A program made the position numbers and the translations under genes. Shown here one piece after another: positions 1 through 2,130 of a stretch of DNA of 17,882 nucleotides (its first letter is position 1; each line of letters begins with the position of its first letter). Below the pieces are notes generated by a model. That model ran no database searches. It was not told the origin of the DNA and saw nothing but the letters and a program-made list of their open reading frames with translations. The stretch is from Acidimicrobiales bacterium (GTDB taxonomy: Bacteria; Actinomycetota; Acidimicrobiia; Acidimicrobiales; Iamiaceae), in assembly GCA_020439605.1 (NCBI GenBank), contig JAGQSI010000009.1:1-17882 (forward strand). Reading direction: 5' to 3'.

Positions 1-2130
1 GTGGGGAATGCAGAGTGTCTTGTGGAGATTGAGGTGGCAGACGTCCGCGCCCATGTCGCCGGGCCGGGTCAGGCCGACCTGCGCGTTCATATTCGCGCCG
101 TCCATGTAGACCTGACCGCCGTGACGGTGAATAACGGCGCAGACCTCCATGATGCCTTCTTCAAAGACGCCATGGGTAGAGGGGTATGTGACCATGATGG
201 CGGCCAGATTGTCGCTGTGCTCCTGGGCTTTGGCCCGCAGGTCATCCAGGTCAATATTGCCGTCGTCATCACAGGCTACCACTACTACGTCCATGCCCGC
301 CATGACCGCGCTGGCCGGGTTGGTGCCGTGGGCCGAACTGGGGATGAGGCAGATGGTACGGTGCGCATCGCCATTATTCAGGTGATAATCGCGAATGGTG
401 AGCAGGCCCGTGTATTCGCCCTGGGAGCCGGCATTGGGCTGAAAGGAAACGGCGGGAAAGCCGGTGATTTCGGCCAACGCATGGCCGAGCTTTTCAAACA
501 GTTCGCTGTATCCCCGGGCTTGATCCTGCGGCGCAAAGGGGTGGATGTGGGCGAACTCGGGCCACGTAATGGGCAGCATCTCCGTGGTGGCGTTGAGCTT
601 CATGGTGCATGAGCCCAGAGGAATCATGGAACGATCCAGAGCCAGATCGCGATCGCTGAGCTTGCGGATGTAACGCAACATTGCTGTCTCTGAACGATGT
701 TCATGAAACACAGGGTGGGTCATGAACGGCTCTTCGATGCGGCTAGTGCCATCGAGGGCCGGGTTCAGGTTGAGAGCGGACCAGTCCACCTCGGAAATCC
801 CAAATGCTTTGGCCACTGCATCGAGGTGTGCGTGCGTTGTGGTCTCGTCGCATGCGATGGCCACGACATCATCGTCAACCTGTCTTAGGTTGATTCCTAG
901 TTCAAGAGCTGCTGCCACCACAGCCTTTGCACGCCCCGGTACGACTGCCTGAACCGTGTCGAAGAAGTCCCCATGTTTGATCTCGATGCCACCGCTACGA
1001 AGTGCTTCGGCCAATGAAGAGGCACTGCGGTGGGCGTGAAGTGCGATGGAGGTCAAACCCTCAGGGCCGTGGTACACGCCATACATCGACGCAATGATCG
1101 CCAACAGTGCCTGTGCCGTGCAGATGTTTGAGGTGGCCTTCTCCCGGCGAATGTGTTGCTCGCGTGTTTGAAGGGCCAAGCGGTATGCACGGTCTCCGTC
1201 AGCATCTACCGAGACCCCTACAAGGCGTCCCGGCATCGAACGCTGCAGTCCTTCACGAACTGCCATGTAACCGGCGTGAGGGCCGCCAAATCCAAGTGGT
1301 ACACCGAAACGCTGCGCCACTCCGACTACCACATCTGCGCCGAGCGAGCCCGGCGATGCGAGCAGGGTCAACGCCAACAGATCAGCGTCGACGGTGACAA
1401 CAGCACCTTGGTCCTTGGCGCTGGCGATCACATCTGTCCAGTCCACTATCCGTCCAGATGAGCCGGGATAGGCCAACAAGATGCCAAACGCGTCAACCCC
1501 CTCTGGTAGCCCAGAACTGAGATCGGCAACCTCTACGTTCAGCCCGAGAGGCACAGCACGGGTCCGAACTACCTCAATGGTCTGAGGATGACAGTCTGCG
1601 TCTACGAGAAACACGGCGTCGTTCGACTTGGATCGAGCTACACGTCTCGCCAACGTCATGGCCTCGGCCGCAGCGGTTGCCTCGTCAAGCATCGAGGCGT
1701 TGGCCAGCGCCATCCCTGTCAGATCAGCCACCATGGTCTGGAAGTTCAAAAGCGCCTCTAGACGACCTTGGGAGATTTCGGGCTGGTAAGGCGTGTAGGC
1801 CGTGTACCACGCCGGGTTCTCCAAGATGTTGCGAACAATCACCGCTGGTGTGATGGTTGCGCTGTAGCCGAGGCCCAGCATTGAGGTGAGAACCTGGTTC
1901 TGAGATGCGATCTCACGCAGTTCTGCCAGCGTCTCAGCTTCGGAGCTTGCTGCTGGCAGGTTGAGAAGGGAGCTTTCGCGGATCGCCCCTGGTAGCGCAG
2001 CATCGCTGAGTTCGTCAAGGCTTGAATAGCCAAGCGACGCCAACATCTTTGCTTGGTCCGACTCACGAGGACCGAGATGGCGAGATTCGAAGGGCAGCGA
2101 GGCTGCAGATGGGTTTGGCTGGTTGGACAC
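1..2130 (-). CDS. gcvP: glycine dehydrogenase (decarboxylating), P-protein, C-terminus outside the window
   Basis: This is the PLP-dependent P-protein of the glycine cleavage system. It decarboxylates glycine and passes the aminomethyl group to lipoylated H-protein. The 710 codons present read without a stop. The reading includes [17 protein letters not shown] near residue 110, the SCTMKLN motif near 507-513, [10 protein letters not shown] near 595-605 and the PLP-lysine motif HLNLHK with Lys at residue 704, close to Lys706 of the E. coli enzyme. About 250 residues of a usual ~950 are missing because the gene leaves the window at base 1. The start is GTG at 2130, with AGGAAG a few bases upstream. 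A tandem glycine riboswitch precedes it, so expression should respond to glycine. Oddity: codon usage changes sharply around 571-612, and the last ~200 codons use almost only GCC/GCG and CCC/CCG and mostly AAT. See the findings. Confidence 0.95.

Follow-up and report, generated by a model that had tools for sequence, protein, structure and literature searches.

The gcvP gene at the left end of this stretch of DNA appears to be an interphylum chimera made in metagenome assembly, a reading to which we give a probability of roughly 94% on the strength of sequence comparisons. The window, by which we mean the whole stretch analysed (positions 1-17882, 17,882 bases), is the entire contig C556 of the MAG G000, a draft of 2,330,754 bases in 556 contigs that is 70.21% complete with 2.6% contamination. 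gcvP lies on the minus strand and is truncated at position 1, the left end of C556; since the window is the complete contig, the foreign part of the gene terminates at the contig end. The left 618 bases were most likely joined to the rest by assembly software, so the apparent hybrid gene would be an artefact of the draft assembly, with no new biology behind it. The parts of the gene are as follows.

632..2130, minus strand: host part, gcvP codons 1-500; 5' part of an Acidimicrobiales-type glycine dehydrogenase gene, as judged from identities and a tree
577..631, minus strand: motif stretch holding the join, probably shared by host and donor; 55 bases with a single difference (619) from the Caldilineaceae genome G096
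1..576, minus strand: foreign part, gcvP codons 519-710; Caldilineaceae (Chloroflexota), with 191 of 192 residues as in G096
1..30, minus strand: contig end, codons 701-710; within a second stretch conserved across phyla, in which Leu replaces a near-invariant Phe

Codon usage within gcvP

The sequence-only reading had claimed that codon usage switches abruptly inside gcvP, and we confirm the switch. A change-point scan peaks at codon 513 (G of 125.9, on a plateau of G ∼120 to 126 across codons 490-540), a value reached in none of 300 same-residue codon permutations, of which the highest gave a G of 88.1. Counts over all 710 gcvP codons in the window reproduce what that reading had said of four amino acids. 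Asn is encoded by AAC in 14 of 14 cases in codons 1-505, and by AAC 3 times and AAT 7 times in codons 506-710. Between the same two parts, the share of GCC/GCG among Ala codons goes from 34 of 73 to 22 of 22, that of CCC/CCG among Pro codons from 9 of 24 to 11 of 11, and that of CTG/CTC among Leu codons from 30 of 59 to 15 of 16. GC content is similar on both sides, again as claimed; GC3 per 50 codons is 0.54 to 0.78 over codons 1-500 and 0.70 to 0.80 afterwards. The Asn cue is weak by itself, because AAT is also used in the other window genes (27 AAT versus 93 AAC) and in the host gcvP end on contig C151, described below (3 AAT, 2 AAC).

We scored blocks of 40 codons by likelihood, taking 13 hand-chosen other genes of the window as the host reference and the 5' part of the Caldilineaceae (G096) gcvP as the donor reference. 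Up to codon 480, the host is favoured in 11 of 12 blocks, the exception being codons 321-360 at −0.9. The donor is favoured in all six later blocks, at −1.0 for codons 481-520 and at −5.2 to −9.8 in the remaining five.

Two sources for one gene

Window positions 618-1 match the gcvP gene on contig C167 of G096 at 615 of 618 bases, with mismatches at 322, 319, and 15. We reached G096 by searching the family of the Caldilineaceae genome G061, in which 42 of 46 genomes gave a match, one of them at 99%. Residues 515-710 are 99% identical to P0001, a protein of a Caldilineaceae bacterium from an 802,930-bp contig, and the next non-window protein follows at 87% (both among the best 120 of 7998 scored); between P0001 and the gcvP protein of G096, 971 of 978 residues agree. 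A near-identical donor was not among the best 80 of at least 590 pattern matches in a scan of genome contigs, where the best reached 77%, and a plasmid nucleotide search returned 134 records, all of 60 to 80% identity. Judged by its match to G096, window 618-1 is not host DNA. The differences at 319 and 322 are three bases apart and lie in the conserved HGTNPAS motif; they may mark variation between strains, or else a further small mixture of sequences.

The 5' part points elsewhere. It is 72 to 74% identical to five same-genus gcvP proteins versus 54.9% to that of G096. Among the best 120 of 8000 scored, residues 1-505 are at most 77% identical to any listed protein; P0121 is nearest at 77%, followed by P0122, named Acidimicrobiales bacterium, at 75%. 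The compared parts of P0127, which also carries the name Acidimicrobiales bacterium, are identical to the gcvP of the same-genus genome G008. These gcvP relatives mark the host as an Acidimicrobiales-type actinobacterium.

The two halves were placed in separate trees, the check that the sequence-only reading had set for itself, and they fall in different clades. The trees hold 43 gcvP proteins, 4 of 47 rows having been dropped for want of the motif pattern. In the tree of the 500 residues before the motif, the window is the sister of P0121 (support 100/99) within a clade of 13 rows (100/99) that holds same-genus genomes and proteins named Acidimicrobiales or Aquihabitans. In the tree of codons 519-710, it groups with G096 and P0001 (100/98), and a 100/98 branch separates the actinobacterial rows. 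The DNA match, the identities, and the separate trees all give two sources for the one contig, and the DNA match and the trees bear out what had been offered as one possibility, two organisms joined at a conserved motif.

Could the codon shift instead be native, with the conserved C-terminal half of a single gene under different selection? The four same-genus genes compared with G001 are indeed more conserved in the C part (84 to 89%) than in the N part (72 to 78%). However, the window's C part is 99.5% identical in DNA to a gene from another phylum, and it resembles the genus less (70 to 73% to five genus members, with 191 of 192 residues shared with G096) than genus members resemble one another, which makes a native shift extremely improbable.

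We consider it just as improbable that the whole contig was binned wrongly and comes from an organism other than that of the MAG. A MAG that is 70% complete with 2.6% contamination leaves some room for this, but the N part of gcvP groups with same-genus genomes, a neighbouring gene of the window is also found beside gcvP in the same-genus genome G010, and the contig has no near-identical match to G096 except at its left end. In the comparison of the rest of the window with G096, no other near-identical stretch was found, the matches being ∼310 bases at 69% inside gcvP and one of 40 bases.

The junction in a conserved motif

Codons 501-518 of gcvP (window 630-577) encode an 18-residue conserved motif. 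The switch had been claimed to sit inside a motif conserved across phyla, and the DNA comparison with G096 puts the junction there. Base by base, positions 618-577 are identical, 619 differs, 620-631 are common, and identity collapses from 632 upward, so that the two sequences agree at 54 of the 55 bases of window 577-631. Codon 519 encodes Glu in 8 of 8 readable genus or family sequences and the donor's Leu in the window, and the overlap between host and donor therefore probably ends by ∼577 at the latest. The exact overlap would thus be at most ∼42 bases (618-577), and 55 if one mismatch is allowed (631-577), which is to be read as an upper bound. An exact 42-base overlap with G096 is seen in no relative among the 12 family genes compared; relatives share exact runs with G096 of at most 26 bases inside the motif, and of up to 35 bases in other parts of gcvP. 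We infer both the length of this overlap and the assembler as the maker of the join.

The 20-mers shared between 12 family genes and 16 Caldilineaceae genes (192 pairs) peak most highly at codons 708, 334, 512, and 787. The third of these peaks is the junction (codon 512) and the first is the contig end (codon 708), so the foreign stretch spans peak to peak, and C151 starts near the fourth. For the junction, the contig end, and the start of C151, three places chosen for this comparison after the fact, the shares of codons that score at least as high in the smoothed profile are 6%, 2.1%, and 9%, respectively, and 4%, 1.8%, and 13% against 76 genes of other phyla. With 25-mers, the start of C151 stands out less, 11% (Caldilineaceae) and 22% (other phyla) of codons scoring at least as high. 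In an assembly graph, an edge that links two branch points would give just such a foreign stretch, running from peak to peak.

We also considered the motif as the single most shared place in gcvP and rejected this, as the longest run falls in the motif for 21 of 192 pairs and the profile ranks it third. With G096 as the partner, 4 of the 12 family genes have their longest shared run in the motif.

In the same-genus MAG G010, contig C135 breaks off inside this motif, at gcvP codon 513 and thus short of codon 519. G010 has two gcvP versions, L148 on C135 and L149 on C75, with 72% DNA identity over 814 bases (blastn); so wide a divergence points to a second organism in this bin or a second copy of the gene.

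The contig end and the host's own gcvP end

At the contig end, the foreign part reaches a second stretch shared across phyla, HKTFCIPH. Of 239 proteins from the window's two hit lists (best 120 of 7998 and of 8000), 5 lack the pattern; among the other 234, HKT is followed by Phe in 232, by Met in 1, and by Leu in the window's own alone. This Leu for Phe is the sole amino acid difference from G096 in codons 519-710, and its distance to the contig end is 15 bases. Such a substitution would suit an error at a contig tip better than a working enzyme.

A second gcvP match in the MAG surfaced in a class-wide survey (match in 368 of 395 genomes) and was pursued with full-length P0121. Positions 2758-3303 of G000 contig C151, which is 3,308 bases long, encode a host-type gcvP end that corresponds to P0121 residues 774-955; the host's continuation is thus present, apart from C556. 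This end is 82.3% identical to P0121 and 76 to 81% identical to five genus members; for two other family members the figure is 68 to 70%, and for the G096 gene 59.8%. No 15-mer of it recurs in the fetched G096 region, and its codon usage favours the host (log-likelihood ratio of +28.6). The gcvP end adjoins gcvT (PF01571, PF08669), and further along lies a BFN-domain gene (PF02577); the gene between these two we take to be MerR-like. gcvT is convergent with gcvP, ∼0.3 to 1.0 kb apart, in G001, G003, G008, and G010. The MerR-like and BFN genes both have matches in G010, and the MerR-like one has another in G001, where it falls at the border of the fetched stretch; this comparison covers the fetched stretches, and elsewhere the stretch ended first or no match was listed. 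From identities, codons, and the gcvT neighbourhood, it follows that the host's gcvP ends like a normal gcvP of its genus. Host codons ∼519-774 were not found in the G000 assembly.

Assembler join or recent recombination

The sequence-only reading had left open whether the join arose by homologous recombination between distant gcvP genes or in the assembler, and we favour the assembler. A genuine and very recent interphylum gene conversion, by homologous recombination at the shared motif in a living actinobacterium, is very unlikely in our estimate, though less so than a native codon shift or a misbinned contig. It would have produced an internal tract of ∼600 to 800 bases, from codons ∼505-518 to somewhere in 711-774, with host sequence on both sides, a version that we rate as equally unlikely. 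The reading frame is intact, host flanks exist on both sides (in the window and on C151), and a junction stretch so nearly exact could seed recombination too. In addition, C151 begins ∼64 codons beyond the window end, and because of this gap there is no overlap that directly contradicts a real internal tract.

However, conversion demands an interphylum transfer recent enough to keep 615 of 618 bases between two organisms whose upstream protein identity is just 54.9%. The tract would have to end in the unassembled gap, and it reaches the contig end on a peak of shared k-mers, where the Leu at a near-invariant Phe probably fits a contig-tip error better. There is also no other discordant protein among 224 gcvP tested: the 239 proteins from the two hit lists (best 120 of 7998 and of 8000) comprise 224 that could be split and 15 that could not, and the one protein with discordant halves is the window's own. 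Likewise, no mosaic gcvP from another assembly is among the best 120 of 7998 and of 8000, the window itself (P0002) being the one found. The species may simply lack other assemblies, as no other listed N-part relative exceeds 77% (best 120 of 8000). The assembler join is favoured because the contig ends 618 bases on, the host's 3' end lies on C151, and the mosaic occurs among the listed hits in the window alone.

In an assembly of this kind, the host and a Caldilineaceae species would share an exact stretch of at most ∼42 bases in the gcvP motif. At the graph node formed by this motif, the contig would leave the host path for the Caldilineaceae path, and it would stop at the next stretch shared across phyla, HKTFCIPH. 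Host codons ∼519-774 would have stayed unassembled, and the host's true gcvP 3' end would start contig C151.

Other genes of the contig

Several other genes of the window deserve mention in their own right. Upstream of gcvP lie two small genes, 2440-2949 and 3080-3619, whose products look lipoprotein-like by eye. They have weak relatives near gcvP in other genomes, at 27% in G001 and G010 for the former and at 30 to 33% in G001, G003, and G010 for the latter. Positions 3663-5975 encode one protein with a GDSL lipase domain and two DUF4214 stretches, and a 61.5% relative is found on the gcvP contig of G010. The 166-amino-acid protein encoded at 10391-10891 is extremely rich in Asp and Glu in its first half and gave no Pfam match. 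At 10984-12621, a 545-amino-acid protein has two Thy1 stretches and is possibly a fused or duplicated thymidylate synthase.

Implications and comparison with known systems

For users of the MAG G000, contig C556 is untrustworthy to the left of ∼577-631. More generally, this case suggests that wrong joins in draft genomes can occur at conserved motifs of housekeeping genes, gcvP among them, and such joins could pass for cross-phylum recombination or hybrid enzymes. An interphylum chimera that escapes a GC plot can, as the case also shows, be located by inspecting codon usage by eye.

A literature search that combined gcvP and glycine dehydrogenase with both chimerism and recombination found no paper. 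Chimeric contigs that arise from k-mers common to several genomes are described for short-read metagenome assembly in passages of two papers (PMC7299287, PMC3436815), the latter of which reports genes in assemblies that each map to exactly two homologues, termed minor misassemblies. The contig described here is like these k-mer chimeras in that one contig holds two organisms joined at a common stretch. It is unlike them in that those passages stress closely related species, whereas here the join would connect two phyla across at most ∼42 exact bases. As for the gene itself, both parts align over their length with known glycine dehydrogenase (the P protein of the glycine cleavage system, encoded by gcvP) and are ordinary gcvP; unlike known gcvP, the two parts come from the genes of two organisms.
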